Source of the DNA: Chthoniobacterales bacterium
Lineage (GTDB): Bacteria > Verrucomicrobiota > Verrucomicrobiia > Chthoniobacterales > UBA10450
DNA: 64,000 bases
Direction: 5' to 3'
Assembly: GCA_013821455.1 (NCBI GenBank)
Contig: JACDGS010000004.1
Coordinates: 1 to 64,000, forward strand
In this document: piece after piece, positions 1 to 64,000 of the stretch
Layout of the letters: each line of letters begins with the position of its first letter
Position numbering within the stretch: the stretch's first letter is position 1
Position numbers and translations under genes: made by a program
The notes under the pieces: generated by a model
What the model was told of the DNA's origin: nothing
Databases searched by the model: none
The model's input: the letters and a program-made list of their open reading frames with translations, nothing else

Positions 1-3
1 AAT

Positions 4-71
4 AAGTCCTTCGCGCGGAAGTTCGTTTCGGCGAGGCGCCGAAACCAGCACGCGAGGCGCGTGCGCTCCCC
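4..71. repeat. Right half of a dispersed palindromic element (see 15967-16111)
   Basis: aagtccttcgcgcggaagttcgtttcggcgaggcgccgaaaccagcacgcgaggcgcgtgcgctcccc nearly identical to 16043-16111. Confidence 0.8.
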
Positions 72-210
72 GGAACATTGCGCACGCTACAAGTAATACA
101 GGCTACCAGGATGAAACAAGATTGCCAACGGTAGCCAATTGCCAGTGAGCGTGCGGCAAATCCTTCCGGCCTTGCGGCAGCGGGTAACCACCGAGTAAGT
201 CGCAGTGACT

Positions 211-612
211 CTACGATCGACTCTGGTATTGTTCGTCGCTCACCTGTTCCATCCATTCCACCGGCTTACCATCCAACGCTTCCTGAATAGCAATATGAGT
301 CATCGCAGTCGTGGGCGTGGCGCCGTGCCAGTGTTTTTCGCCGGGCGCAAACCAGACCACATCGCCCGGCCGGATTTCTTCTGTCGGCTCACCTTCCCGC
401 TGCGCCCAGCCGCAGCCAGCCGTAACAATTAGTGTCTGACCTAACGGATGCGTATGCCACGCAGTGTGAGCACCCGGCTCGAATGTAACACTCGCACCCC
501 GCACGCGCGCTGGGTCCGGCGCCTCGAACAGTGGATCGATGCGCACTGTGCCGGTAAAGTATTCCGCCGGTCCTTTCGTAGATGGTTGCGAACCTATTCT
601 TTTGATTTTCAT
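211..612 (-). CDS. Cupin domain-containing protein
   Basis: ORF 133 aa; cupin motif [23 protein letters not shown]...[17 protein letters not shown]. Confidence 0.9.
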
Positions 613-843
613 TTAGTATTCCCTTTGCCCTAAGTCTTAGACCGAGATTACGCAACCTAAAGATGGCTATCGTTAGTTTCGTTCACCTGATAACGGCTAT
701 GCTACGATCGCCACGCCAGGGATAAGTATCTCGCGCCGCCGCACCCTGGTCGTTATTTCCACTGCTACGACGACGAATATCTTACCAAGGCAGATAATGG
801 GTAACTACGGCTAAGTGAATCGCATCACCATGCGTGGCGAAAT

Positions 844-1422
844 TCACGGCCCCGCAACTCGGCTTCTGAAGGTCTCGTCTATTTTTGCGACAACGATTCC
901 AAGCTTCCGGATGGTGGTGTGATTAATCAGACTTCGTCCGCCCGGCTGCAGAAACATAGCCTGGCTCATGCGCACGTTTGCCAAAGGATTTCCCGGCGAT
1001 AACGCCAGCGTAAAGCTCCAGTGAAAGGCGTTGCCGTCGGCCTCGCCCCGCGCAGCTCCCACCATGTCGTTCGCCGTCGCCTCATAGTGGTGCGCATCCA
1101 GTTTCCGGATGCGCCACGAGCGATGCTGCCGGCTTCCATCGCTGAAGGTCAGATTCTGTTCGAGGCGCAACGTATTGCCGTCTCGATGGCCGCGTGTCTC
1201 CGTCGTTACCCGGCGCTTCGAGCCGGTGATCGTATTTTCGATCATGCCTGCTGAGACCGTTCGCCCCGCGAAGAAAGCTATCGGATCGAGCGCTGGTCCT
1301 TCGTGCGCGAGAGATAACTCCGAGGTCGAGAAGCTGGCGCAACCGGCCAGGCTAAGGGCCGCGCCCAGCAGCCAAATCCGCAAAGGGTTTCGCATAGTCG
1401 CAGCTCGATAACTAATCAGCAC
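844..1422 (-). CDS. DUF3833-like lipoprotein
   Basis: ORF 192 aa with lipobox-like LSLAGCASF and DUF3833-like body. Confidence 0.7.
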   Translation of the reverse strand: MLISYRAATMRNPLRIWLLGAALSLAGCASFSTSELSLAHEGPALDPIAFFAGRTVSAGMIENTITGSKRRVTTETRGHRDGNTLRLEQNLTFSDGSRQHRSWRIRKLDAHHYEATANDMVGAARGEADGNAFHWSFTLALSPGNPLANVRMSQAMFLQPGGRSLINHTTIRKLGIVVAKIDETFRSRVAGP

Positions 1423-1564
1423 TACTTGTAGTTGAAGATTCCGCCATAATATTCGGCATGCAATCTACCGTTTTTTTACGCAGTCTCAGCGTCCTCTCAC
1501 AGGGAAACACTTCGTGCTGGTTACGGCTCCTGTCGCCATCACCTTCGGAATTCGAACCTAAAAT

Positions 1565-1810: not shown

Positions 1811-2112
1811 AGAGCTTCCGCGGCGACTCGCTGCCGTGAAGGCGCAGGACCAGCAACCTAGCAACAAGGTCTTAGCCCCGCTCTCGTTAGGCGATAACCG
1901 GGCAGGGAGCCGCGTCAGCGCAAGCCGGGGCGCGATATTTGATTCCTTTACTCGTTAGGCGAGTTCGACTTGATCCGTTGCCCGTTTTGAATTCATCGGG
2001 TGTCGATAAGGCAGCTCTGACTCCCGAATGTCGACCCCAGCCGTGTCGGCGACAGGTTGAAGGCGATCGGCAAAAAGATTGACTTGTATTTTCGTCCAGC
2101 GCATAAACCAGC

Positions 2113-3995: not shown

Positions 3996-6407
3996 TCACT
4001 CTGCCCGCAGGAGTTTGGATGGATCGACGGCAAGCGCTCGCAGGGCTGGGATGGCAGAGGCGACAAGGCCCAGCAGCGCCATCGTTAGCACCGCCCCGAC
4101 CACGACCACGGGATCGCGCGGATTCGCCTGATACACGATCTGCCCCAGTAACCGGCTGGCGAAGACGCCTAACAACAGTCCCACGAACGAACCGACCCCG
4201 AGCAGCACAATGGGCCGGCCTACTGCCGCGCTCATGACGTGTTTCGTGCGCGCGCCTAACGCTATGCGGATGCTCAGCTCCTTCATTCGCCGGCTCACAT
4301 TGTAGGCCGCCATGCCGAAGATGCCGGTCACCGCCAACATGGCCGCAAGCAGGCCCATGACGCCCAGTGCCAGGGCGGACGCCCGGGCCGGAAACATCTG
4401 GCCGCCTAACGAGTCTAGCCAGCTCTCGACCGTGACGAGCGCGTCTGGCTCGAGACTGCTCAAGGTACGTTCGAGGACAGGCGCGGTCTCGTTCTGCGGC
4501 CGTTTCGACCGCGCTACGACGACTATGCGGCTTTGCTCGTTTTGCGTTAACGAAAGATAGACTACCGGCTGGGGCGGCTCTTGCAGGTTGTGATACTTGC
4601 CGTCCTCGGCCACACCTATCACTTGGGTCAGATGGCCTTGCAGGATGAAGCGTTGCCCGAGTGCTGGCATGTCGCCCCACATCTGTTGGGCGAAGGTTTG
4701 GTTGACGATCGCCACATAGGGAGTGGTGGCGGTGTCGTGCCACGAGACGTCCCGGCCAGCTAACAGCCGCGTAGCAGCAGCCTCAAGGTACCCCGGCGAC
4801 ATGACAAACACATAGGGCGACAAAACAGAGTTACTAAGAGTGAACTCAGTTGTCCCCGGCTGGAAAACCGGAACCCCACGTAGACCACCAGTGAAGGGGG
4901 TGCGGCTTACCGTGCCCGCCGCCGTCACGCCGGGGATGCTCCGCACCGCTTCCAGCATCGCTTTCTTTTTCTCGAACGGCACGTTGTCTCCTTCGACTAA
5001 GCTGAAATCCACTGCGGCCAGCATCACGTTTTGCGGCTGGAAGCCGAGCGGAGCGTGCCGCATCCGCACCATCCCACGGACCGCGACCAGCGAGGCAATA
5101 ACTAACAGCATGCAGATGGCAATCTGTGTCCCTAACAAGAGGTCGCGCAGGGTAAAGCGGCGCAGCGTTATGGAATCTGCCGACCCGCTCTTCATCGCCT
5201 GCAACGGACAGCTCTGCCACACTTGCCTCGCCGGAATCGTTCCAAAAAGCAGCGCGCTAACCAGAGTAAAGGCCAACGCTGCAAGGTAGACCCGCGCATC
5301 CACATTCAAGACCAGAGGGCTATCGGGAAACTGCCACCGCTTCAGTATACCTAACAAGAAGCCGGCGGTTACTAGTCCTGCTGCTCCACCTATCAGGGAT
5401 AAGACGACCGCCTCGGTCATGAGCTGCCTAACGAGTCGAAAGCGGCTCGCTCCCAAGGCGACACGAAGCGCCAGCTCCCGGCTGCGATCGGCCGCGCGCG
5501 CGGCAAACAGGCTGGCCAGATTAGCGCACGCCGCCATGAGTACAAGTAGAGCTAGCCCGGTTACGCTATAAAGGAATCCACGAATAACATCGCCGTTATC
5601 CGCGTTCAGTCCTGAGCGGACCAGACGCAGTGGCACTCCGGTGTCAGTCTTCGGATACTCCTTCGCCAGCTGGGTCGCGATGGCACTGAGGTTATCCGCC
5701 GCCTGCTGGGACGTCACGCCTGGTTTGAGCCGGCCCAGTACCGTCAAAGGCCACCCCGTCCGGTCCGCCAGATGTTTCGCGTCGAATTGGTTCACGACCG
5801 GGATGAAGTAGTCTGGCCAGTCAAATTTTTCCGTCCCGTGGAACTTTGCGGGAGCCACTCCTACTACCGTGAAGGAATCTTTATTAAGCCGTACAGTCGT
5901 TCCGACTACGCGCGGGTCGGCGTTAAATGCGCTTCGCCATAGACTATCGCTCAACACGATGTAGGGCGCTGACTGCGGGCCATGCTCATCCGTTGCCTGG
6001 AGGAGGCGGCCTATTTCTGGTTGCACGCCCAGCATTTCAAAATAATTGCCAGTGACTGAATAGCCCGAGACACTTTTCACTGAGTTACCCCAGCTTAGTC
6101 TTCCGCCAGAGTATCCGTCATAGCCGGCTATCTCACTGAAGGTGGTATTGCGCTGCCGATAGTCATGATACGCCGGATAGGAGGTCGTCAGCAGTTTGTA
6201 GCTCGTCCACGGCCCGAGGCGAAGCTGATAGAGGTTCTGCGGGTCGCTTACGTCAAGCGGGTGGAGCAGGACTGCATTGACGACTCCGAAGACGACGACG
6301 TTCGCGCTGATGCCCAGCATCAAAGTAAGCAAGGCGACAAGCGTGAAGGCAGGCGACTTCCACAGCACGCGCAGCGCATAACGAATATCCAGGACCAAGT
6401 CATTCAT
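3996..6407 (-). CDS. ABC transporter permease, ADOP/MacB-FtsX type
   Basis: 803 aa; MNDLVLDIRYALRVLWKSPAFTLVALLTLMLGISANVVVFGVVNAVLLHPL, two FtsX-like halves. Confidence 0.9.
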   Translation of the reverse strand: MNDLVLDIRYALRVLWKSPAFTLVALLTLMLGISANVVVFGVVNAVLLHPLDVSDPQNLYQLRLGPWTSYKLLTTSYPAYHDYRQRNTTFSEIAGYDGYSGGRLSWGNSVKSVSGYSVTGNYFEMLGVQPEIGRLLQATDEHGPQSAPYIVLSDSLWRSAFNADPRVVGTTVRLNKDSFTVVGVAPAKFHGTEKFDWPDYFIPVVNQFDAKHLADRTGWPLTVLGRLKPGVTSQQAADNLSAIATQLAKEYPKTDTGVPLRLVRSGLNADNGDVIRGFLYSVTGLALLVLMAACANLASLFAARAADRSRELALRVALGASRFRLVRQLMTEAVVLSLIGGAAGLVTAGFLLGILKRWQFPDSPLVLNVDARVYLAALAFTLVSALLFGTIPARQVWQSCPLQAMKSGSADSITLRRFTLRDLLLGTQIAICMLLVIASLVAVRGMVRMRHAPLGFQPQNVMLAAVDFSLVEGDNVPFEKKKAMLEAVRSIPGVTAAGTVSRTPFTGGLRGVPVFQPGTTEFTLSNSVLSPYVFVMSPGYLEAAATRLLAGRDVSWHDTATTPYVAIVNQTFAQQMWGDMPALGQRFILQGHLTQVIGVAEDGKYHNLQEPPQPVVYLSLTQNEQSRIVVVARSKRPQNETAPVLERTLSSLEPDALVTVESWLDSLGGQMFPARASALALGVMGLLAAMLAVTGIFGMAAYNVSRRMKELSIRIALGARTKHVMSAAVGRPIVLLGVGSFVGLLLGVFASRLLGQIVYQANPRDPVVVVGAVLTMALLGLVASAIPALRALAVDPSKLLRAE

Positions 6408-6768
6408 GAGTGTGACGCTCTCTCCAAGAGGAGTGAGAGCTTACCTTCAACACCGGAGACTCCGCTTGTCGAGTATCATTTTGAGTGGGACACGCCACTC
6501 CAGAAAGTCGAAACTTGGATGATGAGCCAGGCGCCGTAACGCAGCCTCGCGCAAAGCGAACTCTACACCCTAGACGCGCTTAGCTCTTAAAACCAGGCTA
6601 AAAGCCCACCGTCCTTTACTCGTTAGGCTAGGTTGAGGGACTGCAATCCAAGCCGTTGCGCTACGGAATCGAATGGCCTTTGTGGGTCTTAACTTCCGTC
6701 TCGTCGTCCCGAGCAATGGTTCCGTCAGATATGACATCATCGCGGAAGTTCGCCGCGGTTACGGGCAG

Positions 6769-12310: not shown

Positions 12311-13534
12311 TCACAACGTCCCGGCATCGTAGGCTTGCTCGCCGTGGAGCGACGCATCCAATCCCAGGTCTTCTTCCTCTTCCGAAACCTTCACACGCGC
12401 GAAGACATTGATCAGTGCGAGCATGACGTAAGTGAAAAGAAAGGCATAAAGCGACGCGCCGATGACAGCCGCACATTGAATGAGAAAGAAATGACTTCCT
12501 CCCTTTAGCAACCCATCAGCGCCACCGGCGTTCATCGCTTTAGAGGCAAAGACTCCGAGTAGGATAACGCCGAGCGCACCACCTATTCCGTGCACGCCCC
12601 ACACATCCAACGCGTCATCCCAACCCAGCTTGTTCTTTAAGTGCACCGCGAGATAGCAGACGACTCCCGCGGCGATGCCAATGAGAGCCGCCGAAGGTAA
12701 CGAAACAAAACCTGCCGCCGGTGTGATCGTCGCCAGGCCCGCGACCGCGCCCGTAAGAAGTCCGACAAACTTAGGTCTGCGCTGCACACTCCATTCAATG
12801 ACCAGCCAGACGATAGCCGCGAACGAAGCAGCCACGTCGGTATTCAAGAACGCGAGGCCAGTAATAGCATTGACGTCTAGCTCACTCCCAGCATTAAACC
12901 CATACCAGCCGAACCATAGAAGACCGGTCCCGATAGCTATCAGTGGGACGCTATTCGGCGGAGACTCACGATCGCGCCGGCGACCGACATAGAATACAGA
13001 GGCAAGCGCGGCGAAACCAGCCGTTGCATGGACCACAATGCCGCCAGCAAAATCTAGCACCCCGTGCTGTGCGAGTAACCCGCCACCCCACACCATGTGC
13101 GCGAAGGGATAATAGACGAGCAACTGCCAAAGGATAAGAAAGAAGAGATAGGCCTTAAAAGTAACTCGGTTAACAAACGCACCCGTGATCAGCGCGGGAG
13201 TAATAATGGCAAACATCATCTGGTAAGCCATAAAGACGAACTCCGGCAGCTTATGATTGCCGGGAAAGGGCGAATTCAAATCGACACCGTGCATGAAAGC
13301 CTTGTCGAGGTTACCGATGAGCCCGCCTAACGAGTCGCCACTGAAGCAGAGCGAGTAACCGCAGATGAACCACATGATGGTGGTTATCCCCATGGAAACA
13401 AAACTCTGGATCATGATGCCAAGAATGTTTCGCTTCCCCGCGAGCCCGCCGTAGAAGAATGCGAGGCCGGGCGTCATGAGCATGACGAGGCTGGTCGCGA
13501 GGAGCATGAAACCGGTCGTTCCTGTATCAAACAT
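12311..13534 (-). CDS. amt: Ammonium transporter
   Basis: 407 aa; MLMTPGLAFFYGGLAGKRN...VHATAGFAALASVFYVGRR...WGVHGIGG. Confidence 0.96.
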   Translation of the reverse strand: MFDTGTTGFMLLATSLVMLMTPGLAFFYGGLAGKRNILGIMIQSFVSMGITTIMWFICGYSLCFSGDSLGGLIGNLDKAFMHGVDLNSPFPGNHKLPEFVFMAYQMMFAIITPALITGAFVNRVTFKAYLFFLILWQLLVYYPFAHMVWGGGLLAQHGVLDFAGGIVVHATAGFAALASVFYVGRRRDRESPPNSVPLIAIGTGLLWFGWYGFNAGSELDVNAITGLAFLNTDVAASFAAIVWLVIEWSVQRRPKFVGLLTGAVAGLATITPAAGFVSLPSAALIGIAAGVVCYLAVHLKNKLGWDDALDVWGVHGIGGALGVILLGVFASKAMNAGGADGLLKGGSHFFLIQCAAVIGASLYAFLFTYVMLALINVFARVKVSEEEEDLGLDASLHGEQAYDAGTL

Positions 13535-18509: not shown

Positions 18510-18533
18510 AAATGCAAATCAGACCTTTATTCG

Positions 18534-23299: not shown

Positions 23300-23301
23300 C
23301 G

Positions 23302-46136: not shown

Positions 46137-46171
46137 GCCTAACGATGCCTAACGAGGCGCCCGCCTAACCG
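46137..46171. repeat. Three tandem GCCTAAC motifs in intergenic region
   Basis: tgcctaacgatgcctaacgaggcgcccgcctaacc. Confidence 0.9.
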
Positions 46172-48605: not shown

Positions 48606-49961
48606 ATGAGCTCGGAATCCCAGCGGATGGAAAAAATCGTCAGCCTCTGCAAGCGGCGCGGTTTTATTTTCCAGGCGGACGAAATCTACGGCGGCCTCAA
48701 CGGCGTCTGGGATTACGGCCCGTTAGGCGTGGAGCTGAAACGCAACCTGAAAGACTATTGGTGGCGCGTGATGGTGCGCGAACGCGACGACGTCGTCGGC
48801 CTCGACGGCGCAATCCTCACCCACCGCGCCGCGCTCAAAGCCAGTGGGCACGAGGACACGTTCAGCGATCCGATGGTCGACTGCCGGACGTGCAAAGTAC
48901 GTCTGCGCGCCGATCAACTCCCGGAAAAAAATGGAGTTCCGCAGTGTCCTAACTGCGGCGGCAAAGATCTAACTGAAGCCCGTCCGTTCAACCTCATGTT
49001 CTCGACCCAAATGGGCGCGTCGGCCGATCCGGACTCGATCGCTTATCTTCGTCCCGAGACTGCGCAGTCGATTTTCGTGCAATTTAAAAACGTGCTCGAT
49101 ACTTCGCGCAAAAAATTGCCCTTCGGCATCGCACAAATCGGGAAGGCTTTTCGGAACGAAATCAATCCGCGCAATTACATTTTTCGCTCGCGCGAGTTCG
49201 AGCAGATGGAGCTCGAATATTTCTGCCGCCCCGAACAGGGCGCCGAGCTGCTCGAATATTGGAAAAACGAGCGACTGAGGTTTTACGAAAATATTGGTTT
49301 GCCTAACGAGAAGCTGCACGTTCTCACTGTGCCTGAGGCCGATCGGGCCTTTTATTCAAAAGGCACTTACGACATCGAATATGATTTTCCCTTCGGCCGG
49401 CAGGAACTCGAGGGCGTCGCCTACCGCACCGACTACGACCTCACGCAGCATCAAAAAGCCAGCGGCAAACCGCTGGATTATTTCGACGAGGAAACGAAAC
49501 AGCGTTTCATCCCGCACGTGATCGAGCCGAGTGCCGGTGTCGATCGCACCGTGCTCGCGCTTTTGTGCGAAGCCTTCGCCGAGGAGACGGTCACCGACGA
49601 AAAGGGAAAGAGCGAAACCCGCACGGTGCTGCGCTTTCATCCCCGAATCGCGCCCATCAAGGTGGGCGTTTTCCCGCTGCTGAAAAATCAGCCCGCTCTG
49701 GTCGAAAAGGCGCGCCAAGTCCAGGCGCTCCTGCGTCCGCTGATGAATGTTTTTTATGACGAAACGGGCGCGATCGGACGGCGCTACCGGCGGCAGGATG
49801 AAGCGGGCACGCCGTTTTGCCTAACGATCGATTTCGAGTCGTTAGGCGAGCGCGATGCCGCGCTGCGCGACACCGTCACGTTGCGTCATCGCGACAGCAT
49901 GGAGCAGGAGCGCGTCGCCATCGCCGAGCTGCCCGCGCGTCTCCTCCTCGCGATTGCGTAG
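48606..49961 (+). CDS. glyS: Glycine--tRNA ligase (alpha2 type)
   Basis: MEKIVSLCKRRGFIFQADEIYGGLNGVWDYGPLGVELKRN...LMFSTQMG...YLRPETAQSIFVQF. Confidence 0.97.
   Translation: MSSESQRMEKIVSLCKRRGFIFQADEIYGGLNGVWDYGPLGVELKRNLKDYWWRVMVRERDDVVGLDGAILTHRAALKASGHEDTFSDPMVDCRTCKVRLRADQLPEKNGVPQCPNCGGKDLTEARPFNLMFSTQMGASADPDSIAYLRPETAQSIFVQFKNVLDTSRKKLPFGIAQIGKAFRNEINPRNYIFRSREFEQMELEYFCRPEQGAELLEYWKNERLRFYENIGLPNEKLHVLTVPEADRAFYSKGTYDIEYDFPFGRQELEGVAYRTDYDLTQHQKASGKPLDYFDEETKQRFIPHVIEPSAGVDRTVLALLCEAFAEETVTDEKGKSETRTVLRFHPRIAPIKVGVFPLLKNQPALVEKARQVQALLRPLMNVFYDETGAIGRRYRRQDEAGTPFCLTIDFESLGERDAALRDTVTLRHRDSMEQERVAIAELPARLLLAIA
49819..49847. repeat. Tight inverted pair of the GCCTAACGA/TCGTTAGGC word inside glyS
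   Basis: gcctaacgatcgatttcgagtcgttaggc. Confidence 0.9.
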
Positions 49962-50317
49962 TGAACTTGGAAGATTTTCGCGCGCGTTGCCTAACGAAGG
50001 CGGCGGTCACAGAAGGCACGCCTTTTGGCCCGGACACAATCGTCTTCAAGGTCGCGGGGAAAATGTTCGCGCTTGCCTCGCTCGAGGCGGTACCGCCGCG
50101 GGTAAATTTGAAATGTGATCCCGAGCGCGCGCTGGATTTACGCGATCGCTATGATGAGGTCACGCCCGGTTATCACATGAACAAAAAGCATTGGAACACG
50201 GTCGAGTTGTGCGGCCGTATTCCCGTCGCGGAGTTACGCGCGATGATCGATCACTCGTACGAACTGGTGGTCGCATCGTTGCCGAAAAAGCAACGCGCGG
50301 AAATCACCGCCTTGTAA
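49961..50317 (+). CDS. MmcQ/YjbR family DNA-binding protein
   Basis: GTG start overlapping glyS TAG; MNLEDFRARCLTKAAVTEGTPFGPDTIVFKVAGKMFALASLE...PGYHMNKKHWNTVEL. Confidence 0.92.
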   Translation: MNLEDFRARCLTKAAVTEGTPFGPDTIVFKVAGKMFALASLEAVPPRVNLKCDPERALDLRDRYDEVTPGYHMNKKHWNTVELCGRIPVAELRAMIDHSYELVVASLPKKQRAEITAL

Positions 50318-50459: not shown

Positions 50460-51351
50460 GCTTTTCCACTGCGCCTCGCCCGTCGTTTGGCATGTCTTCT
50501 TTTGCGGGATGAATCACCTGCCGCAACTGCACCGTTCCGATATCGAGGTGGAGCGCGGCCAGTGCGACTTCGAGAAAAGCATCTGGCGGATCGGTGAGCG
50601 CAACGTGTAGTTTTCCTTCCGCACCCGGTTCCGCGCAGAGCGCTTCTGTTTCCAACAACTGCGCCACCGCCCGAGCGCAATTTTGTGCGGAATCGACCAG
50701 CGTCACATCTGGTCCGAGAAAACGCCCGATCGCTTCGCGCAACAACGGATAGTGCGTGCAACCCAGCACCAGCGTGTCGATACCTTCAGCGACCAGCGGC
50801 GCGAGATATTGCCTAACGATACCGTCCGTGATGTCTCCATCGAGCCAGCCTTCTTCGATAAGTGGGACAAAAAGCGGACAGGCCCGCGCCGTCACGCGCA
50901 CGCCCGGCTCGATCGCCTCAAGTGCGCGCTCGTAGGCGCCGCTTTTGATCGTCGCCCGGGTGCCGATGATGCCGATGTGGCCGTTGCGCGTCGCCGCCAT
51001 GGCCGCCTCGGCGCCGGGCCGAATCACCCCCGTCACTGAGACCGGACTGATCTTCTGCAAACGGGGCAGCGCGAGTGCCGACGCGGTGTTGCAAGCCACC
51101 ACCACCGTCTTGCAATGCTCCTGCAAAAGCATCGCCGTGATCTCGACGCTGTAGCGCTCGACCGTGGCCGCGCTTTTTCCGCCATAGGGCAGACGGGCCG
51201 TGTCGCCGAGGTAATAAATCTTCTCGTTAGGCAAAAGATCGCGCAACGCCCGCACGACGGTGAGTCCGCCGATGCCGGAATCGAAAACGCCGATCGGCTG
51301 GGCGCGCGCGGACGCGGTCGCGGGCTCGGACGATGCATGGTTCGGCGACAC
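50449..51351 (-). CDS. murI: Glutamate racemase
   Basis: IGVFDSGIGGLTVVRALRDLLPNEKIYYLGDTARLPYG...VVACNTASA...LGCTHYPLL. Confidence 0.96.
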   Translation of the reverse strand: MSPNHASSEPATASARAQPIGVFDSGIGGLTVVRALRDLLPNEKIYYLGDTARLPYGGKSAATVERYSVEITAMLLQEHCKTVVVACNTASALALPRLQKISPVSVTGVIRPGAEAAMAATRNGHIGIIGTRATIKSGAYERALEAIEPGVRVTARACPLFVPLIEEGWLDGDITDGIVRQYLAPLVAEGIDTLVLGCTHYPLLREAIGRFLGPDVTLVDSAQNCARAVAQLLETEALCAEPGAEGKLHVALTDPPDAFLEVALAALHLDIGTVQLRQVIHPAKEDMPNDGRGAVEKLSS

Positions 51352-51417
51352 GGTGGGCCAACTTGAGCGGAGCGGCCCGCCGCTCGCAAGCGCATTGTGG
51401 CAGCGCGCCGCGACTCG

Positions 51418-54400
51418 TTAGGCTGCGTCGCGCCAGCCGCCGCGCAGCACTTGCTCCAACTTATGGAGAAAGGTGCGCGTGGTGTAAGGCTTCATCAGGT
51501 AACCATCGATCCCGAAGGCGGCGAGCTCCGACGATTTGGCTTCGTCGGTGCGGCCAGTGGAGACGATAATTTTCACCCTCGGCGCGATACGGCGCAGCGT
51601 TCGCACGAGCATGATTCCGTCCATCATCGGCATGGCGAGATCGGTCACGACGATGTCGATCAAGCCTGGTTGTTGTGCGAAAACTGCGAGCGCGGTCGGA
51701 CCATCTTCGGCCAGCAACACTTTGTAGCCGTTGCCTTCAAGGACGAATTCCGCGAGCTGGCGAATGCTCAATTCATCATCCACCACGAGGATGGTTTGGC
51801 CGTCGCCGCGCGGCAGCGATTCTTCATTTTCCGAGTCACCTGAAGATTGGCCAGTCTCTTTGGCAGGCAGGAAGATTTTAAAGCGTGTATGCCCGGGTTC
51901 GCTTTCCAATTGCAGAAAACCGCCGTGACCGCGGACGATGCCGGCGACCGTGGAAAGTCCGAGGCCGGTCCCTTGGCCAATGTCCTTGGTGGTGAAAAAG
52001 GGATCGAAAATTTTCGGCTGAATATCCGGCGGAATCCCGGTGCCGGTGTCCGTCACTTGCAGCAAGACGTGGGGGCCGGCGGTCGCGCCCGGCATCATGT
52101 TCGCGTAGTGCGCATCGACGTCGAAATTTTCCGCGCTGAGGCGAAGCTTGCCGCCTTCGGGCATGGCGTCGCGGGAGTTGATGCAAAGATTGAGCAGGAC
52201 CTGATGCAGCTGTGTGGGGTCGGCTTCGAGGGAACGAATATTTTCGTCGAAGCTCGTTTTCAGGTCGATCGATTTTGGGAAAGTCTGGCCCGCGATTTTC
52301 GCGACTTCCTGGAGGAGGTAAATCGGCTTTAAGAGAAGCCGGTCGCCCACCGCGCCGCGGGCGAAAGTGAGAACTTGTTTCACGATATCCGCGCCTCGTT
52401 GCGCGCTCGATTCGACGATATCGAGAAACTTATCCCGCTCGGCCGGATCGGTTTCTTCGCGCAAGATCGGCGCGGCCATCATGATCGGAAGCAGAATATT
52501 ATTCAGGTCGTGCGCGACGCCGCTGGCCAGGGTGCCGATGCTTTCCATGCGTTGCGCGCGGAGGAAATGCTCCTCGATTTTCTTTCTCTCGGTGATGTCG
52601 TTATTGATCGAGAGAACGGCCTTGGGATTCCCCTTCTCGTCGCGCACGAGCGTTTTCCGCGCTTCGACGGTAACGATGCTGCCATCTTTCACCATCTGCT
52701 GCAGCTCACCGAACCATTCTCCCCGCACGATGGTGGCGGCGTTGGCCTTTTCGTAACTATCATTGTTGCCGATATGACAGAGGGTGCTCAACTTTTGCCC
52801 GAGAGCTTCCTCCGCGGTGTAGCCGTAGAGGCGTTCCGCGCCTTTGCTCCAAAAGAGCAAATGACCTTGAAGATCACGCACCATAATGGCGTCGTGCGCG
52901 AGATCGAGTAGCGCCGCCTGCTGTTCGATACGCTCGGCCGCCTGGCGGCTCTCGGTGATGTCTTCGTAGGTGCCGAGGATGCCGTACACTTTTCCGGTCG
53001 TGTCGCGCAGCGGGACTTTGTTGGAGCGCAACCAGAGGCGGCGGCCGGCGGCATTTTGTAGCGGTTCTTCGTAGGCAAATTTGGGAGTTCCCGAGTCCAT
53101 GACGCGCCTGTCGTCCACGCGATACTGCGCCGCGAATTCGCTCCAACTGGCGTCGAAATCCGTCTTGCCCACGATCGACTGCGAATTGCTGAAACCGGCA
53201 TCGCCCGCGAAGGCGCGGTTGCAGCCGAGGTACGTGCAGTTGGTGTCTTTCCAAAAGACGCGTTGCGGGATGTTGTCCAGCACAGTCCGAAGCATCAATT
53301 GTGATTCGAACAATTCTTTCTCGGCCCGTTTTTTGCCCGTCACGTCGGCGTTGATGCCAACCCACTCGCGCGTCGCTCCCTGAGCGTCGCGCACGGGCAC
53401 ACCGCGCACGGAAAAGTTTCGATACGCACCATCAGCTCCGCGCATTCGGTATTCGATTTCATAGGGGACCTGGGCGCGCTTGCATTCCGACCAATGCTGC
53501 AGGACGTGCTCGCGATCTTCCGGATGAATGCAGTCGGACCAGCCAAAGCCCAGAACCTCCTCGCGGCTTTGGCCGGTGAAATCGCGCCAGCTCGGCAGAT
53601 CTTCGATCACATTTCCCTCGGGATCCGTTTGCCAGACAATCTGCGAAGTGGCCTCGGTAAAAGAACGAAAACGCTCGACACTGCGGCGCAATTCTTCCTC
53701 GGCACGCTTCCGCTCCGTGATGTCCTGCACGCTGCCTTCGTAGAGGAGCGACCGACCGGCAGCATCGCGCACGACCCGAACATTTTCGGAGACCCAGATC
53801 GCGCCGCCATCTCTGCGCTTGACCTGGTATTCGTAATTGTTGATGAAACCTTCGCGCTCAAGCCGGTCCCGAAATTCCTTGCGCAAAGTGGGATCGACGT
53901 AGCCCTGCTTTTCGAGGTCGTTGCGCTCGCGAATCAACTGCTCGGGACTGCCGAATCCGAGCATCCGAGCCAAGGCTGGATTGGCCGAAAGATATTTGCC
54001 CTCCGGAGTGTTTTGGAAAATTCCTTCCTGAGCATTGTCGAAAATGGACCGGTAATTTTCTTCGGCTGCCCGCAATTGCTTTTCCTGCAACCGCTCCTGC
54101 GTGACATCGCGCAGGATGAGCAGCAGTGCCGGCCGCTTTTCGTACAGGAAAGACACGACGGTCGATTCGGCCTCGACCACTGAGCCGTCCAAACGCACGA
54201 GTCTGCGCGCTGCGGTCGGAGGTTGTTTCCCTTCCGCGACTTGCCGGGTCCGAAGCGCTATCTCGCTGCGTTCATCCGGATGCACGATCTCGTTCGGAGG
54301 ATGCCCCAGGATTTGTTCCGGTCGCTCCGCCCCGAGCAGTGCGAGTCCGGCTGGATTAATGAGCACAATTTCGTCGTCGCAAAGAACGAGAATGGCGTTG

Positions 54401-55185: not shown

Positions 55186-55314
55186 GACAGAGCCGTAAGT
55201 GCAAATATCGCGCCAATCTGCCCGGGAAATTCCTGTTTCCGCGCGATACCATCATCGCGCTCATTGCGTCGGCCATAGATTTGCCGAAGCAACGCCTAAC
55301 GAATCATCACTCGC

Positions 55315-55742: not shown

Positions 55743-58700
55743 TTGCTCCCCATGGCGGAAATTCCCAAGGCCTATGAGCCGCAGGCGGTCGAAGCGAAGT
55801 GGTACGCCCGCTGGCTCGAGCACGGCGATTTTCGCGCCGAGGCCGCTTCCCCGAAGCCCGCCTACTCGATTGTGATGCCGCCGCCTAACGTCACCGGCGT
55901 GCTGACGTTAGGCCACGTCCTGAACAACACCATTCAGGACATCCTTGCCCGCCGCGCGCGAATGTTAGGCCAGGAAGTGCTCTGGCTTCCCGGCCTCGAT
56001 CACGCGGGCATCGCCACACAAACCGTGGTCGAGAAAAAATTGCGCAAGGAGGAAGGCAAAACCCGCCACGATCTCGGGCGTGAAGAGTTCGTTAGGCGCA
56101 TCTGGGAGTGGAAAGAAAAACATGGCGGCATCATCATCGAGCAGCTCAAGCGGCTCGGCTGTTCCTGCGATTGGTCGCGCGAGCGTTTCACCATGGACGC
56201 GAACTACTCGCGCGCGGTGCAGCAAACGTTCGTCGATCTGTATCGCAAAGGTCTGATCTATCGCGGCCGCCGAATGGTGAACTGGGATCCGGTCGCGCTC
56301 ACCGCACTTTCCGATGAGGAAGTGATCCCGACTCCGCAAAAAAGCACGCTCTATTATGTGCGCTACGAGTTGGTCGATGAGCCGGGCCGTTTCCTCGAAG
56401 TCGCCACTACGCGTCCGGAAACCATTATGGCCGACGTCGGCCTGGCGGTTCACCCTAACGATGAGCGTTATCGCTCATTGTTAGGCAAAAAGGCCTGGCG
56501 CCCGCTCGATCGCGCACCGCTCCCGATCATCGGCGACGACGCGATCGACCCTGAGTTCGGCACCGGCGTTTTGAAAGTCACGCCGGCGCACGACAAAACA
56601 GATTTCGAGATCGGCCAGCGCCACAACCTGCCGGTTATCGACGTGCTGTATCCGAACGGTAAAATCAATTGTCCTGCCGTGCCGGAGCTGGATGGCCTCG
56701 ACCGCTTCGTCGCCCGCAAAAAATCCGCCGAGCTGCTGAGCGAGCGCGGACTTCTCGTTAGGGAAGAACCGCACGAAAGCACAGTCGGCTTCAGCGAACG
56801 CGCCGGCGTCCCGATCGAGCCGCGCCTGAGCGAGCAATGGTTCCTCAAATATCCGAAAGTTTCCGAAGCGCTCGCCGCGGTTGGGCCTAACGAGTCGATC
56901 CGTTTCCGTCCTGAGCGCTGGGAAACTGTTTACCAGCATTGGCTCGAAAATATCCAGGACTGGTGCATCAGTCGCCAGCTCTGGTGGGGCCATCGCATCC
57001 CGGTTTGGTATCCCACGGAGGAGAAAGGCGCGGCAAAGACTATCACCGTCCTACAGCAAGCGTGGAATGAGATCGACGGCGCGAACGTCCGGGAGTTGCG
57101 CGTCAATGCGTTCGACTTCGCGCGACGTCGCGGTTGGCTCAACCAAGAATTCCCTAACGAAGACACGGGCTGGTTTATCGAGCTGGTCACCGCCAGTTTG
57201 CGCCATGCTTTTTCAAACGTCGGGGTGATCAACATCAAGCTCGTGCCGTCATTGCCGCGGCTTTTGCGGAACGCGCGACTTCTCGCCACGGTGCCGCACA
57301 ATCCGCCCGCCGCTGAAATAAAATGCGTCCACATTTTTGGCGCGGCCCTTCTCTGCGGTCATGGCTTTTACCGGATCAAATTTACCGTCAAAGAATTTCA
57401 CACGAAGCGAAAGCTTTATGATCACCAGAGCGTCCAGCTAAAAAAAGAGGAGCCCGGCGGTGAAAAGTCTCCAGAGGAGGCCCGCCTCGCGGCGAGCTTT
57501 GCCCTCTGGCCTGCACCAGGCTCCGCAGTGAAAATCGGTGATCTTTTTCCTGAGGTCAAGAGCGATTCCGGGATGCTTCTGGTTCAGATCGATTCCCCCG
57601 GCGAAGGCTGGGCACAGGACCCTGATGTGCTCGACACCTGGTTCTCGAGCTGGCTCTGGCCGTTCAAGACGATGGACGCGAAGACGCGCGCGAAATTTTA
57701 CCCGACGAGCGATCTCGTGACTGCGCCGGACATCATTTTCTTCTGGGTCGCGCGCATGATTATGGCCGGCCTCGAGTGGACGGGCAAAGCGCCTTTCCGC
57801 GATGTATTTTTCACCGGACTCATCCGCGACGGGCAGGGCCGCAAGATGAGCAAGTCGTTAGGCAACTCTCCCGACCCGCTCGATCTCATCGGCAAGTACG
57901 GCGCCGACGGCTTGCGTTTCGGATTGATGCGCATCGCACCCGCCGGCCTCGACATCCGCTTCGACGAGAAACAAATCGAAGAGGGCCGCAACTTCGCGAA
58001 CAAGCTTTGGAACGCGGCGCGTCTCCGCCAATTGCACGGCGGCGAGACTGAAACGGAAATAAATCCCGCGCTCCTCGCGAATGACGACAAATGGATTTTG
58101 CTTCGGCTCGACGGCGCGATTCGCGCCGTCACCAAAGCTCTGACGGAATATAATTTCAGCGAAGCCGCGCAGGCGCTTTACCGCTTCTTCTGGAGTGAAT
58201 ATTGCGATTGGTATCTGGAGGCGAGCAAAGCCGCGCTCGGATTTCCCGGCGAAGGCGAACCGACGCCACGCAAAACCAACACGCTGGCGGTGATTGATTT
58301 CGTCCTTGGGCAGACGCTGCGTTTGTTTCATCCGTTCATGCCTTTTATCACGGAGGAGCTTTGGCAGAGTCTGGGCTTCAACCAGGATCTGCCGGCCGAT
58401 CAAGGCGGAGCGACAATTCAATTCTCGCCCTGGCCGCAACCGCTGGACGACGATTTTAAAAAGCACTACGGCCTTTCGCCTAACGACGAGGAACAAACGC
58501 GCGCCAAGCATGAAACCGTCCTCGCCGGTCGCGGTTTGCGCCGTGATTTTAAGATTGCTTCCAACAAGCGCGTTGCCTTTGTCCTCGTGCCAAAAAATCC
58601 GCTCCCGGAAGAGGAGGCAGCGGTCTTACGAATCCTGCTGCATGCCGAACGCCTCGATCTTCCGGATGAATATGAGCCCGTCAAAGGCACACCTGCCGCC

Positions 58701-58946
58701 CTCACTCCTTTGGGAGAGCTTTACCTACCCCTCGAAGGGTTGATCGACCTCACGGCGGAACGCCAGCGGCTTGGCAAAGAGATCGCTAAAGTTGAAGCAG
58801 AGCTCGTGACTGTGCGAAAAAAACTGGCAAACGAAAACTTCTCCGTGAACGCTCCGGCACCGGTCGTCGCCGAGCATCGTCTGCGCGAGACAGACTTTGC
58901 CGAGCAACTGACGCAGCTTCAGCAACTGTTAGACTCGTTAGGCTAA
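55743..58946 (+). CDS. valS: Valine--tRNA ligase with ~180-aa atypical internal segment
   Basis: MPPPNVTGVLTLGHVLNNTIQDILARRARMLG...DPDVLDTWFSSWLWPF...GRKMSKSLGNSPDPLDLI. Confidence 0.97.
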   Translation: MLPMAEIPKAYEPQAVEAKWYARWLEHGDFRAEAASPKPAYSIVMPPPNVTGVLTLGHVLNNTIQDILARRARMLGQEVLWLPGLDHAGIATQTVVEKKLRKEEGKTRHDLGREEFVRRIWEWKEKHGGIIIEQLKRLGCSCDWSRERFTMDANYSRAVQQTFVDLYRKGLIYRGRRMVNWDPVALTALSDEEVIPTPQKSTLYYVRYELVDEPGRFLEVATTRPETIMADVGLAVHPNDERYRSLLGKKAWRPLDRAPLPIIGDDAIDPEFGTGVLKVTPAHDKTDFEIGQRHNLPVIDVLYPNGKINCPAVPELDGLDRFVARKKSAELLSERGLLVREEPHESTVGFSERAGVPIEPRLSEQWFLKYPKVSEALAAVGPNESIRFRPERWETVYQHWLENIQDWCISRQLWWGHRIPVWYPTEEKGAAKTITVLQQAWNEIDGANVRELRVNAFDFARRRGWLNQEFPNEDTGWFIELVTASLRHAFSNVGVINIKLVPSLPRLLRNARLLATVPHNPPAAEIKCVHIFGAALLCGHGFYRIKFTVKEFHTKRKLYDHQSVQLKKEEPGGEKSPEEARLAASFALWPAPGSAVKIGDLFPEVKSDSGMLLVQIDSPGEGWAQDPDVLDTWFSSWLWPFKTMDAKTRAKFYPTSDLVTAPDIIFFWVARMIMAGLEWTGKAPFRDVFFTGLIRDGQGRKMSKSLGNSPDPLDLIGKYGADGLRFGLMRIAPAGLDIRFDEKQIEEGRNFANKLWNAARLRQLHGGETETEINPALLANDDKWILLRLDGAIRAVTKALTEYNFSEAAQALYRFFWSEYCDWYLEASKAALGFPGEGEPTPRKTNTLAVIDFVLGQTLRLFHPFMPFITEELWQSLGFNQDLPADQGGATIQFSPWPQPLDDDFKKHYGLSPNDEEQTRAKHETVLAGRGLRRDFKIASNKRVAFVLVPKNPLPEEEAAVLRILLHAERLDLPDEYEPVKGTPAALTPLGELYLPLEGLIDLTAERQRLGKEIAKVEAELVTVRKKLANENFSVNAPAPVVAEHRLRETDFAEQLTQLQQLLDSLG
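55883..55912. repeat. Tight 10-bp inverted pair of the motif in the valS HIGH-region codons
   Basis: gcctaacgtc accggcgtgct gacgttaggc. Confidence 0.9.
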
Positions 58947-60127: not shown

Positions 60128-61175
60128 CCTAAAGGAAGCACTCGTTAGGCAGGCGCGCCTCCTGGGTTTCGACGACTGCCGTATTGCCGCCGCCGCGGCG
60201 CCCACCCATGCCACGGAGTTTCGCGCCTGGCTCGAGGCCGGAGGCCAGGCAGAGATGAGTTGGCTCGAGCGCGGGGCGGTAAAACGAGGCGACCCGCAAC
60301 TCGTGCTCGCCGGCGCGCGTTCGGTCATCGTGCTGGCGCTGAATTATTGGCAGGGTGAAAATAGTTTGCCTAACGAGTATAAGACTCGGGTCGCACGCTA
60401 CGCCTGGGGCGATGATTATCACCAGGTCATCGAGAAAAAGTTAGAACAACTCGACAAGTTTCTCATGACCGCGGGAGGAAGCCAGCGTTGCTACGTCGAT
60501 ACTGGACCCATCCTGGAACGCGACTTCGCCGCCACCGCTGGTCTCGGCTGGCAGGGCAAGAGTACGATGTTGCTCAACCGCAGCCTCGGTACTTGGTTTT
60601 TCCTGGCGGAAATTCTCACCACGCTTGAGTTACCGCCCGATTCGCCGCAGCCCGATCGTTGCGGCAAGTGCACCCGCTGCATCGACGCCTGCCCGACCGG
60701 CGCCATCACCGCGCCGCATCGGCTCGACGCGCGCCGCTGCATTTCCTATCTCACGATCGAGTTAAAAGGCAGCATCCCACTCGAGCTGCGACCGCTCATC
60801 GGCGATCGCATTTACGGCTGCGACGATTGCCTCGAGGCTTGTCCGTGGAATCGCTTCGCCCAAGTCTCGCGCGAGAGTGCTTTCGCCGCACGCAGCGCGG
60901 TCGCTCGCATGGAGCTGCGCGATTTCCTCGCGCTCGATGATGAGCGTTTTCGCGAACTCTTCCGCGGCTCGCCGATCCAGCGCGTGAAACGGCGCGGTTT
61001 CCTCCGCAATGTCTGCGTCGCGCTCGGGAATGTGGGCCATGAAAGCGACCTGCCGGCACTCCGCCTCGCCGCGCGCGACCGCGAGCCGCTGATCGCGGAA
61101 CACGCCCTCTGGGCCATCGAGCAGATCACGCTCCGGCTCGCGGCACTGAACGGGAAAGCCGTTGCAAAGGTCTAA
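60105..61175 (+). CDS. queG: Epoxyqueuosine reductase
   Basis: YVDTGPILERDFAATAGLGWQGKSTMLLNRSLGTWFFLAEILTTLEL...CGKCTRCIDACPTGAI...YGCDDCLEACPWN. Confidence 0.96.
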   Translation: MSYESAADLKEALVRQARLLGFDDCRIAAAAAPTHATEFRAWLEAGGQAEMSWLERGAVKRGDPQLVLAGARSVIVLALNYWQGENSLPNEYKTRVARYAWGDDYHQVIEKKLEQLDKFLMTAGGSQRCYVDTGPILERDFAATAGLGWQGKSTMLLNRSLGTWFFLAEILTTLELPPDSPQPDRCGKCTRCIDACPTGAITAPHRLDARRCISYLTIELKGSIPLELRPLIGDRIYGCDDCLEACPWNRFAQVSRESAFAARSAVARMELRDFLALDDERFRELFRGSPIQRVKRRGFLRNVCVALGNVGHESDLPALRLAARDREPLIAEHALWAIEQITLRLAALNGKAVAKV

Positions 61176-61214
61176 AAGACCTCGTTATATCCATATTCCT
61201 TATCCGTTAGACCG

Positions 61215-62573
61215 ATGCATCAAGCCGCTACGCCAGCTCCTACCGTTCGTCGCAAGCGCAAATCGCGGCGCAAGCTTTATATCATTCTCGGCATCGTCGG
61301 GTTCTTTTTGCTTCTCATCATCGTCTCGGTCATTCGCGGCAAGCGCGAGAAACCAATCGAAGTCACGACGGAGAAAGCGGTGCGGCGCACCATCATCGAA
61401 ACCGTCTCGGCCACGGGAAAAGTGCAGCCGGAGACGGAGGTAAAAATCTCCCCGGAGGTCGCGGGTGAGATCATCGAGCTGCCGGTGATTGATGGCCAGG
61501 AAGTAAAAAAGGGCGACCTCCTCATGAAGATTCGGCCGGATTCCTACAAGGCACAGCTAGAACAACAACAAGCCGCAATTAGTACCGCGGAAGCAATCAG
61601 CGGCCAGCAAAAAGCTTCGATGGATAAGTCTTCCCAGGACCTCAAACAAGCGATCGATCTTTACAATAAAAAACTCATCTCACTCACAGAGATGGTAACG
61701 GCACAGACAACCTTCGATGCCGCGCAATCCATGTACCAATCGGGTCTTCATAGCATCGAAGGCGCGAAAGCCAGCTCGAGTCAGGCGCGCGATCAACTTT
61801 CTAAAACGACCATCTATTCGCCGCTCGATGGCATTGTCACGGTCCTCAATAGCAAGCTAGGCGAGCGCGTGGTCGCGACGAATCAATTTGCCGGCACCGA
61901 AGTGATGCGCGTGGCCGACCTTAACCACATGCAAGCCAGAGTGGACGTAAACGAAAACGACGTTGTGCATGTAAAGCTGGGCGATACCGCCAAAGTCTCG
62001 ATCGATGCCTATGGCACTCGTACTTTTCCCGGCACGGTAGAAGAGATCGCCAACACTGGGACTACCACCGGCACCGGCACGCAGGAAGAGGTGACTAATT
62101 TCCAAGTCAAAATCCGTATCGACAAACCGGATCTGCGCCTGCGTCCCGGGCTTAGCTGCACTTCCGATATCCAAACTCAGATGGTGAAAGATGTCGTCGC
62201 GGTGCCGATCCAGAGCGTCACCATTCGCAGCGGCGACAGCAATCTAAGTCCCGAGGAAATCGAGAAGAAGAAAGAGACCGCGAGCGCGAAAGACCAGGGC
62301 GATAACAACGCCGAGGTGCAGAACGACCGTCTTGCAAAACAGACGGCGAAAGAAGAGCGCGAGAAGTTAAAAAAAGTCGTCTTCCTCAAAGATGGCGGCA
62401 CAGCGAAAATAGCTGAGGTCACAACTGGCATAGCAGACGATACCAACATCGAAATCAAAACCGGAATCAAGCCCGGCGACGAAGTCATTTCCGGCAGCTA
62501 CAGCGCAATTAGCCGCAAGCTCAAGAACGGCGCCAAAGTCGAGTTCGAGAAGCCGGGGACGACCAGTAAGTAA
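61215..62573 (+). CDS. Efflux periplasmic adaptor (MacA/HlyD family)
   Basis: TEKAVRRTIIETVSATGKVQPETEVKISPEVAGEIIELPVIDGQEVKKGDLLMKI. Confidence 0.94.
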   Translation: MHQAATPAPTVRRKRKSRRKLYIILGIVGFFLLLIIVSVIRGKREKPIEVTTEKAVRRTIIETVSATGKVQPETEVKISPEVAGEIIELPVIDGQEVKKGDLLMKIRPDSYKAQLEQQQAAISTAEAISGQQKASMDKSSQDLKQAIDLYNKKLISLTEMVTAQTTFDAAQSMYQSGLHSIEGAKASSSQARDQLSKTTIYSPLDGIVTVLNSKLGERVVATNQFAGTEVMRVADLNHMQARVDVNENDVVHVKLGDTAKVSIDAYGTRTFPGTVEEIANTGTTTGTGTQEEVTNFQVKIRIDKPDLRLRPGLSCTSDIQTQMVKDVVAVPIQSVTIRSGDSNLSPEEIEKKKETASAKDQGDNNAEVQNDRLAKQTAKEEREKLKKVVFLKDGGTAKIAEVTTGIADDTNIEIKTGIKPGDEVISGSYSAISRKLKNGAKVEFEKPGTTSK

Positions 62574-62636
62574 GGTGTCGGCAGCGATGACCGTTTCCAA
62601 GTCCCTTCGCTTCCTGCCGTCTAATTGTAGTTAGAA

Positions 62637-63380
62637 ATGAAAACTTCCGCAGGAATCCGGCCGCCGGGTCCGCTCGTCATCGACATTGAGAACATAACCA
62701 AGAAATACGTCATGGGTGAGGAGACCATCCATGCCTTGCGTGGAGTGACTCTGCAGATTCACCGCAACGAATATCTCGCCATCATGGGTCCGAGCGGCAG
62801 CGGCAAATCCACCTTGATGAACATGCTTGGCTGCCTCGATACACCGAGCTCCGGCCGCTACGAATTCAACGGCAAAAGCGTCTCCGACATGGATGGTGAC
62901 GAGCTGGCCGATATCCGTAATCGCGAGATAGGATTCGTCTTTCAAACCTTCAACCTCCTCCCGCGCTCGACCAGTCTGCGCAACGTCGAGCTACCGCTCA
63001 TCTATGCCGGGATCGACCCCGAAGAACGGACCGAGCGCGCCACCCAGGTCCTGAGTGATGTCGGTCTGGGCGATCGCCTAACCCATAAGCCTAACGAACT
63101 CTCCGGCGGCCAGCGCCAGCGCGTCGCGGTCGCGCGCGCGCTCGTGAACAACCCTTCCATCATCCTGGCCGACGAACCGACCGGTAACCTTGACTCCAAG
63201 ACCGGCGAAGAGATCATGGCCTTGTTCGAAAGCCTCTACCAGCAAGGCAACACCGTCATCCTCGTCACGCACGAGGCCGACATCGCGCGTCACGCGCGTC
63301 GGAGCATCCATCTGCGCGATGGCGTGGTCGAGAGTGACACTTTTAATCAGGATGTCGCCGCCGCAGTCGCGGTCCATTAA
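62637..63380 (+). CDS. ABC transporter ATP-binding protein (MacB/LolD type)
   Basis: [29 protein letters not shown]...[40 protein letters not shown]. Confidence 0.96.
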
Positions 63381-63474
63381 CCAAAGGCCCGCCAAAGTGG
63401 GCACACTTATACTCGTTAGGCAACAACGCTGCGTCGGACGAGCAAGGGCCACTGTTCGCGCACGACAGATGCCC

Positions 63475-64000
63475 TTAGCGAGATTTCACTGTCAGGATCG
63501 CGCTGTCACTGACAACGCTTCCCGCGCCCGCACCGATGACAACTGCATAAAGCGCGCCGTTGTCCGCAATCGTTGTGGGCGGAGTTTTATAGGAAGACTG
63601 GATCGCGCCGGGGATAGCGGAGCCATTCTTCTCCCACTGATAATACACAGGATACATTCCCGCAGCCGTGGCACTGAAACGCGCCTGTTTACCTACGATG
63701 ACGCTGGCGTTCGCTGGCTGCTGCGTAATGGTCGGTAAGACAGGCGGACGCGCGTTAAACGGTCCGTTAATCGCCAGAGTTAGCTCGTCGATCATCGCAG
63801 ACGTTGTATAACCCGAAAGGTCGCTCGTGGAAGTAACAATGGTATAGAAGACCGCAATGTTCGCTGGCTGCGGCGGGATAGTCGCGGTGTAACTCTTCCC
63901 CACCCCTGTGGCTGCGACTAACTGTGACGTAATGAACCCGTCGTTCGACCATCTGACATAGATACGCTCCTCCGGCGACTTCGCCCGGCTCGTGGCAAGG
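63475..64000 (-). CDS. Partial exported protein with Ig-like domain (5' end beyond window)
   Basis: Frame open to window edge (…AKSPEERIYVRWSNDGFITSQLVAATGVGKSYTATIPPQPANIAVFYTIVTS…PTITQQPANASVIVGKQARFSATAAGMYPVYYQWEKNGSAIPGA). Confidence 0.75.
   Translation of the reverse strand, partial: LATSRAKSPEERIYVRWSNDGFITSQLVAATGVGKSYTATIPPQPANIAVFYTIVTSTSDLSGYTTSAMIDELTLAINGPFNARPPVLPTITQQPANASVIVGKQARFSATAAGMYPVYYQWEKNGSAIPGAIQSSYKTPPTTIADNGALYAVVIGAGAGSVVSDSAILTVKSR

Follow-up and report, generated by a model that had tools for sequence, protein, structure and literature searches.

Why does one short word recur throughout a bacterial chromosome, in unrelated genes and between them, on both strands alike? 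The question is raised by the 64,000-nucleotide stretch analyzed here (the window), contig C61 of a 4.30 Mb, 117-contig metagenome-assembled genome (MAG) of a Chthoniobacterales bacterium (G000), whose closest protein relatives are encoded by Chthoniobacterales/Spartobacteria MAGs of the Verrucomicrobiota. The word is the 9-mer GCCTAACGA (reverse complement TCGTTAGGC), hereafter word A. Its abundance exceeds what composition and coding constraint predict, and it is retained at orthologous sites in related genomes well above the rate of neighboring sequence. We regard word A as probably a self tag that resembles a DNA uptake sequence (DUS) and owes its persistence to biased natural transformation, a reading to which we assign a probability of roughly 0.6.

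Abundance and shape of word A

The original prediction put the 7-mer CCTAACG/CGTTAGG at about 100 copies in the window, with about 8 expected; counting gave 55 CCTAACG and 50 CGTTAGG, or 105, against a composition expectation of about 8.4 (GC 0.582). By far the top 9-mer of the window is word A, with 34 copies of GCCTAACGA and 31 of its complement (65, composition expectation about 0.5). According to our own gene calls, 46 of these 65 lie within predicted genes, 14 are intergenic, and 5 span gene edges. Across the whole genome, 2,306 forward and 2,299 reverse copies add up to 4,605, versus 62 (33 + 29) for the same word read backwards, and these counts exclude a chance origin. Within 721,517 sampled bases of the same genome, 839 copies correspond to 1.16 per kb.

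Codon and strand tests were based on samples of 374–722 kb of the G000 genome. Genes predicted in the 374 kb sample with our own open reading frame caller (hexamer scoring, 84% coding) contain 284 copies, as opposed to 5.6 ± 2.3 under genome-wide synonymous codon shuffling (maximum 12 in 100 shuffles) and 7.6 when codons were shuffled within genes; protein-level constraint is ruled out as the source by these shuffles. Genic copies use the four stop-free reading frames (SLG, LVR, LT, and PNE/PND), the remaining two containing a stop codon, and are oriented 148 sense to 135 antisense with respect to their genes. The codons TTA, CTA, and AGG are rare, at 5.1%, 4.1%, and 3.9% of the codons used for the respective amino acids. 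Copies of word A take up 15%, 17%, and 22% of their occurrences, respectively. The stop codon itself lies within a copy in 67 of 678 genes. The word had been described beforehand as about equally frequent in both orientations, as occurring in genes and between them, as read in these same frames at the cost of uncommon codons, and as a signature that selection or propagation explains better than protein constraint does, and the counts bear out this description. The enrichment persists over a codon-aware expectation and does not trace to one multicopy element, the flanks of the copies being unrelated.

Neighboring copies lie on the same strand in 408 cases and on opposite strands in 392, and their spacing is exponential (Poisson-like), i.e., random. 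Density is 0.91 per kb in coding and 1.51 per kb in intergenic sequence, with 1.65, 1.69, and 1.12 per kb in convergent, tandem, and divergent gaps, respectively. Relative to the composition expectation, exact matches are 147-fold over-represented, sequences with one mismatch 3.4-fold, and those with two reach a ratio of 0.8; for two control words the ratio stays between 0 and 1.5 across mismatch loads, without a peak.

Word A is non-palindromic, GCCTAACGA differing from TCGTTAGGC, and has the extended consensus TT-GCCTAACGA-GTAWARG. Intergenic copies are T-rich upstream and show G-T-A-n-A downstream (G at +9, T at +10, A at +11 and +13), of which coding copies retain a mere trace. The commonest downstream octamers are GTAAAGGA, GTCTAAGT, and GTATAAGT/A, and GCCTAACGAGTAAAGGA is a recurrent extended form; beyond about 10 bp the flanks are unrelated between copies, as judged from the 20 bp flanks of the 7-mer copies. 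Changes to the inner T-A-A-C are almost never tolerated, and single-change variants at outer positions reach 118 copies (first G to C) and 65 copies each (G8 to A, A9 to G). Together, flank and tolerance profile look like those of a protein-binding word that may accumulate wherever coding permits.

Two regulatory roles were considered and set aside. The extended form read in reverse (TATACT...) resembles a −10 box, but a promoter element is not supported because density in convergent gaps equals that in tandem gaps and divergent gaps are less dense. A terminator role was dropped on the grounds that close inverted pairs are not in excess.

Retention and replacement among relatives

Comparison with sister genomes at orthologous positions, a check put forward in the original prediction, was performed with four genomes of the same genus (G001–G004; 5–13 kb of alignment per genome); records L009 (palsa_1392), L001, and L012 align to the window exactly as G004, G003, and G001, respectively. 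The orthologous stretches are 76–80% identical overall, with a flanking identity of 75%. Word A is intact in 33 of 63 comparisons, versus 21 of 243 (9%) for control 9-mers located 18–35 bp away (odds ratio 11.6, p = 2e-13). Orthologous sites lacking the intact word differ mostly by substitutions, with gaps in 7 of the 63 comparisons. Word A has accumulated without insertion, probably by point mutation.

All genomes compared are MAGs, and their kinship labels were assigned automatically. Genomes of the window's genus carry 1,410–4,605 copies of word A each, those other than G000 1,410–2,754; counts in G005 and G014 are 2,147 and 1,802. Other genera of the family contain 19–590 copies, several being at control level and others clearly higher, and 44 genomes from other families of the order contain 0–30, fewer than the reversed control. 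Word A is restricted to one family.

Sister genera are dominated by a second word, AAGATCGACA (word B; extended form CGYAAGATCGACAWTT), which is unrelated to word A. Word B reaches 4,653 copies in the 2.9 Mb genome G014, about 1,000–1,500 in genera g6, g9, and part of g14, 606 in G008, and 760 in G016, and it is near absent from the window's genus (23 copies in G000). Genomes of the remaining families of the order are rich in neither word. Genes of G014 hold 139 copies, compared with a codon-shuffle expectation of 9.7, and intergenic density is 2.3 per kb; with its 1,802 copies of word A, this genome is densely populated by both words. Word B was noted in G014 and in genera g5, g6, g9, g12, g13, and g14 of the same family (records L121–L125 and L111–L115). 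In a ComEC tree, the genomes with word A, those with word B, and those low in word A fall into three separate clades, although the tree, built from one gene, with variable support and a long branch to the outgroup, is trustworthy for this broad grouping only. A search of 47–170 kb samples of the low-density genera (G010, G022, G006, G011, and G019) for single-letter variants of word A or a new word yielded no replacement word. Separately, G022 (L134–L137) has some 15 copies of a 15–16 bp repeat, CGGATCGTACAGTTCC, within 80 kb alongside TACACCTA, which looks like a longer repeat family, and the 42% GC genome G097 (L155–L156) has a CACTCCGGCACTAT-type word, with 7–9 copies in 40 kb, that may be a clustered repeat.

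A third word, CGTTCCCGC, was found in gut Opitutales (G117–G120; records L035, L040, L046, and L065, gut Opitutales/Verrucomicrobia MAGs). It occurs about 3,060–3,910 times per 1.7–2.1 Mb genome, or about 1.8–1.9 per kb, with balanced strands and with 124 coding copies where codon shuffling predicts 10. Like words A and B it is non-palindromic, and it is unrelated to word A. It looks like another uptake-type signature of the Verrucomicrobiota that arose independently. When viral contigs were scanned for GCCTAACGAGTAAAGGA, two matched, each with no further copy of the 9-mer over 6–8 kb, which gave no sign of phages densely carrying word A.

A putative uptake tag and its rivals

Of the roles originally proposed for the word (uptake sequence, Chi-like or repair-associated word, modification target), an uptake-type function fits best. 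We favor it because word A is non-palindromic and non-polar, occurs about once per kb, is denser and longer outside genes, combines a rigid center with soft edges, falls off steeply with mismatches, is retained at orthologous sites, and is replaced lineage by lineage. Natural competence, word-biased uptake, and the identity of the reading protein are what we infer from this pattern. A surface receptor, most likely a (minor) pilin of a type IV pilus, would bind word A on environmental DNA; PilT-driven retraction and ComEC would import the word-bearing DNA; and recombination would swap it for the homologous chromosomal stretch. The word would then accumulate by point mutation where tolerated, that is, between genes, at rare-codon positions, and in stop codons, because word-carrying alleles would be copied in more often. 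Stretches of 5–13 kb without the word include, as read by eye, a DNA-methyltransferase-like gene, small toxin-antitoxin-like genes, and pilin clusters, as expected of recently arrived or fast-diverging DNA. One of them (L095:3929-17373) extends over 13.4 kb with small toxin-antitoxin-like genes and is likely recently acquired.

A search for com and pil genes, likewise suggested at the outset, located ComEC, at least a dozen prepilin-like genes (14 prepilin-signature matches), a pseudopilin/PilC-like cluster, and PilT in G000. The pilT gene of the window, correctly called by the original prediction, is part of the pilus machinery that the proposed mechanism requires and is no evidence for that mechanism. 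Its earlier description as compatible with pilus-linked uptake but proving nothing is apt, given that ComEC is also encoded in families without the word; for the same reason the machinery is permissive rather than discriminating. A ComEA-type helix-hairpin-helix match was not counted as ComEA, as it sits at a nuclease-like gene. The protein at this match (L215:7700-8497, contig C56 of G000) appears by eye to be of the thermonuclease type and is possibly linked to DNA handling.

Several observations weigh against an uptake tag. Of 58 genomes, 53 encode ComEC, among them members of families lacking the word. In the search for a receptor, the pilins at G000:C109 and G000:C59 were traced across genomes and neither tracks the word, one being a multicopy major-type pilin found order-wide and the other having no counterpart elsewhere in the genus. 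An inner core common to words A and B is not obvious, unlike in the known dialects of the DUS and of the uptake signal sequence (USS), which do have one (PMC12616744). Inverted pairs of word A within 40 bp are not in excess (25 direct and 14 inverted of 39).

The closest parallels are the two described uptake systems. Neisserial DUSs, read in several dialects by the minor pilin ComP, are also non-palindromic words (10–12 bp) present in thousands of copies on both strands, in genes and between them, and their variants follow phylogeny, as words A and B appear to do in the broad grouping of the ComEC tree. Simonsiella muelleri carries two DUS variants at similar numbers in one genome (PMC3630211), a situation that G014 resembles. 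The Pasteurellacean USS (AAGTGCGGT, ACAAGCGGT; predicted receptor the minor pilin ComN/PpdA) has a 9-bp core and a one-sided A/T-leaning flank, a rigid inner core with tolerant outer positions, and a total length similar to that of word A with its flank, the extended USS (eUSS) being 17 nt (PMC12616744). Over-representation of DUS and USS falls steeply with mismatch load (PMC1939737), as it does for word A. The differences are that word A is unrelated in sequence to either; that its host belongs to another phylum; that DUS dialects share a CTG inner core; that the word A flank is GTAWARG where the USS has clean A/T tracts; and that closely spaced inverted pairs, a frequent source of terminators in Neisseria and Haemophilus, are not the main type among close pairs of word A.

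The strongest rival, albeit an unlikely one, is a signature of the type of the cyanobacterial highly iterated palindromes (HIPs), in which an orphan DNA methyltransferase (or another modification or repair enzyme) acts on the word and keeps it abundant, and lineages that replace the enzyme replace the word as well. HIP1 is a short word of genome-wide abundance, and some lineages have alternate HIPs with a specific methyltransferase (PMC4390886); word replacement occurs in the present family too, and word B contains GATC. HIPs are, however, palindromes tied to methyltransferases, whereas GCCTAACGA, AAGATCGACA, and CGTTCCCGC are non-palindromic. A contiguous asymmetric 9–10-mer that is extended on one side by about 8 positions also exceeds the usual methyltransferase targets, which are shorter. 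The modification target named in the original prediction fits poorly for these same features, a non-palindromic 9-mer and its extended one-sided flank.

It is less probable still that word A is the binding site of a chromosome-organizing or repair protein (a nucleoid-associated or segregation protein, or a non-polar recombination hotspot) selected for even coverage. Genome-wide occurrence on both strands and retention at orthologous positions would agree with such a site, but the spacing is random rather than even, stretches of 5–13 kb hold no copies, and sites of this kind do not as a rule change to an unrelated sequence from one genus to the next within a family, or share a genome with another word of similar density.

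A polar word, such as a Chi-like recombination hotspot or an FtsK-orienting polar sequence (KOPS), would likewise be short, frequent, and non-palindromic. Chi and KOPS are strand-polarized, though, and the near-equal strand counts of adjacent copies (408/392) and of sense and antisense copies (148/135) leave this proposal very improbable and already largely refuted; without strand coherence between neighbors, words of this type are disfavored whatever the replichore map. Finally, a multicopy mobile repeat or recurring protein motif carrying the word, for which other dispersed repeats in the genome (e.g., window 50336-50459) and the recurrence of GCCTAACGAGTAAAGGA might speak, is refuted by unrelated flanks past about 10 bp, the use of four frames encoding different peptides at a 50-fold excess over codon shuffling, word-free orthologous sites that differ by substitutions (gaps only 7/63), and the lack of the word in the window's own dispersed repeats.

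If word A is indeed an uptake tag, it would be the first such signature outside the Neisseriaceae and Pasteurellaceae; according to a 2025 paper, no other families are known to have words of this kind (PMC12616744). Nothing relevant to word A or to uptake sequences in Verrucomicrobiota was found in the open-access literature. Whether the Verrucomicrobiota evolved uptake-sequence systems of their own, independently of the two proteobacterial families, seems to us evenly poised; these would comprise a soil Chthoniobacterales family switching between GCCTAACGA and AAGATCGACA and, separately, gut Opitutales with CGTTCCCGC. They would then be the third and fourth cases, in another phylum, implying that such systems arise repeatedly and that sequence-guided sex is a recurrent, phylum-crossing solution instead of a proteobacterial oddity. 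Word replacement within one family, together with a two-word genome, would provide a natural series for how a self tag is replaced, and abundant uncultured soil and gut bacteria would be identified as naturally transforming. The family is, to our knowledge, uncultured. In practice, contigs of the family can be recognized in metagenomes by the word, which also serves to flag DNA of recent acquisition.

Features of the window

Table 1. Copies of word A and other features in the window. Every row other than the first and last is one copy of word A, listed by its location; strand + means that GCCTAACGA reads on the + strand, and "extended" denotes a copy with the extended flank.
Location or feature	Positions	Strand	Remark or basis
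Whole window, 105 CCTAACG/CGTTAGG including 65 full GCCTAACGA	1..64000	.	count
Intergenic	1884..1892	-	
Intergenic	1952..1960	-	extended (GTAAAGG flank)
ADOP-family permease gene 3996-6407	4404..4412	+	
ADOP-family permease gene 3996-6407	5426..5434	+	
Intergenic	6620..6628	-	extended
Ammonium transporter gene 12311-13534	13325..13333	+	
rsmH 14632-15699	15307..15315	+	extended
Spanning end of gene 18534-20939	18531..18539	-	overlaps stop codon
Gene 18534-20939	20269..20277	-	
Gene 18534-20939	20756..20764	-	
Gene 20936-21826	21229..21237	-	
Gene 20936-21826	21576..21584	-	
Gene 22529-23299	22692..22700	+	
Gene 22529-23299	22848..22856	-	
Spanning end of gene 22529-23299	23294..23302	+	
Gene 23302-24276	24152..24160	+	
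Gene 24256-24969	24347..24355	-	
Gene 24256-24969	24622..24630	+	
Intergenic or gene start	24975..24983	+	extended
Spanning end of gene 27881-28771	27878..27886	-	
Gene 27881-28771	28022..28030	+	
Gene 27881-28771	28632..28640	-	
Gene 28910-29350	28947..28955	+	
fabF-like gene 29364-30614	30254..30262	+	
Gene 31658-32782	31757..31765	+	intact in G003
Gene 31658-32782	32360..32368	+	
Histidine kinase gene 32834-34996	33241..33249	-	
Convergent intergenic gap	38831..38839	-	extended
Convergent intergenic gap	38967..38975	-	
Convergent intergenic gap	39059..39067	-	extended
Photolyase-like gene 39087-40445	39483..39491	+	
Photolyase-like gene 39087-40445	39569..39577	+	
Photolyase-like gene 39087-40445	39885..39893	+	
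Photolyase-like gene 39087-40445	39920..39928	+	
Photolyase-like gene 39087-40445	40268..40276	-	
Gene 40904-41734	41201..41209	+	intact in G001, G002, G003
Gene 40904-41734	41462..41470	+	intact in G001, G002, G003
Gene 40904-41734	41686..41694	-	
Intergenic	41769..41777	+	intact in G001
Intergenic	42690..42698	-	
Class-III aminotransferase gene 42761-44179	43196..43204	-	intact in 4/4 same-genus genomes
Intergenic	44389..44397	-	extended (GTCTAAGT)
Spanning end of gene 44415-46061	44412..44420	-	extended
Gene 44415-46061	45587..45595	+	intact in G001, G003, G004
Gene 44415-46061	45844..45852	-	
Intergenic	46137..46145	+	
Intergenic	46147..46155	+	10 bp from copy 46137..46145
Within pilT	47581..47589	+	intact in G003, G004
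Class-II tRNA-synthetase gene 48627-49961	49301..49309	+	
Class-II tRNA-synthetase gene 48627-49961	49819..49827	+	
Class-II tRNA-synthetase gene 48627-49961	49839..49847	-	intact in G001
Gene 49961-50317	49989..49997	+	intact in G002, G004
Racemase gene 50449-51351	50811..50819	+	intact in G001, G004
Racemase gene 50449-51351	51224..51232	-	intact in 4/4 same-genus genomes
Spanning end of gene 51418-55185	51415..51423	-	
Intergenic	55294..55302	+	
Valyl-tRNA synthetase-like gene 55752-58946	56089..56097	-	intact in G001, G003, G004
Valyl-tRNA synthetase-like gene 55752-58946	56885..56893	+	
Valyl-tRNA synthetase-like gene 55752-58946	57855..57863	-	intact in G003, G004
Valyl-tRNA synthetase-like gene 55752-58946	58478..58486	+	intact in G004
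Near end of valyl-tRNA synthetase-like gene 55752-58946	58935..58943	-	intact in G003
queG-like gene 60105-61175	60142..60150	-	
queG-like gene 60105-61175	60368..60376	+	extended
Gene 62637-63380	63089..63097	+	
Convergent intergenic gap	63413..63421	-	extended
pilT, type IV pilus retraction ATPase	46792..47955	-	TIGR01420 352.6 bits, cut-off 319.1

The window also contains dispersed repeats, free of word A, at 50336-50459, 38884-38924, 38995-39043, and 48509-48597. They recur in many same-genus contigs in both orientations and are possibly small palindromic elements or elements resembling miniature inverted-repeat transposable elements (MITEs).

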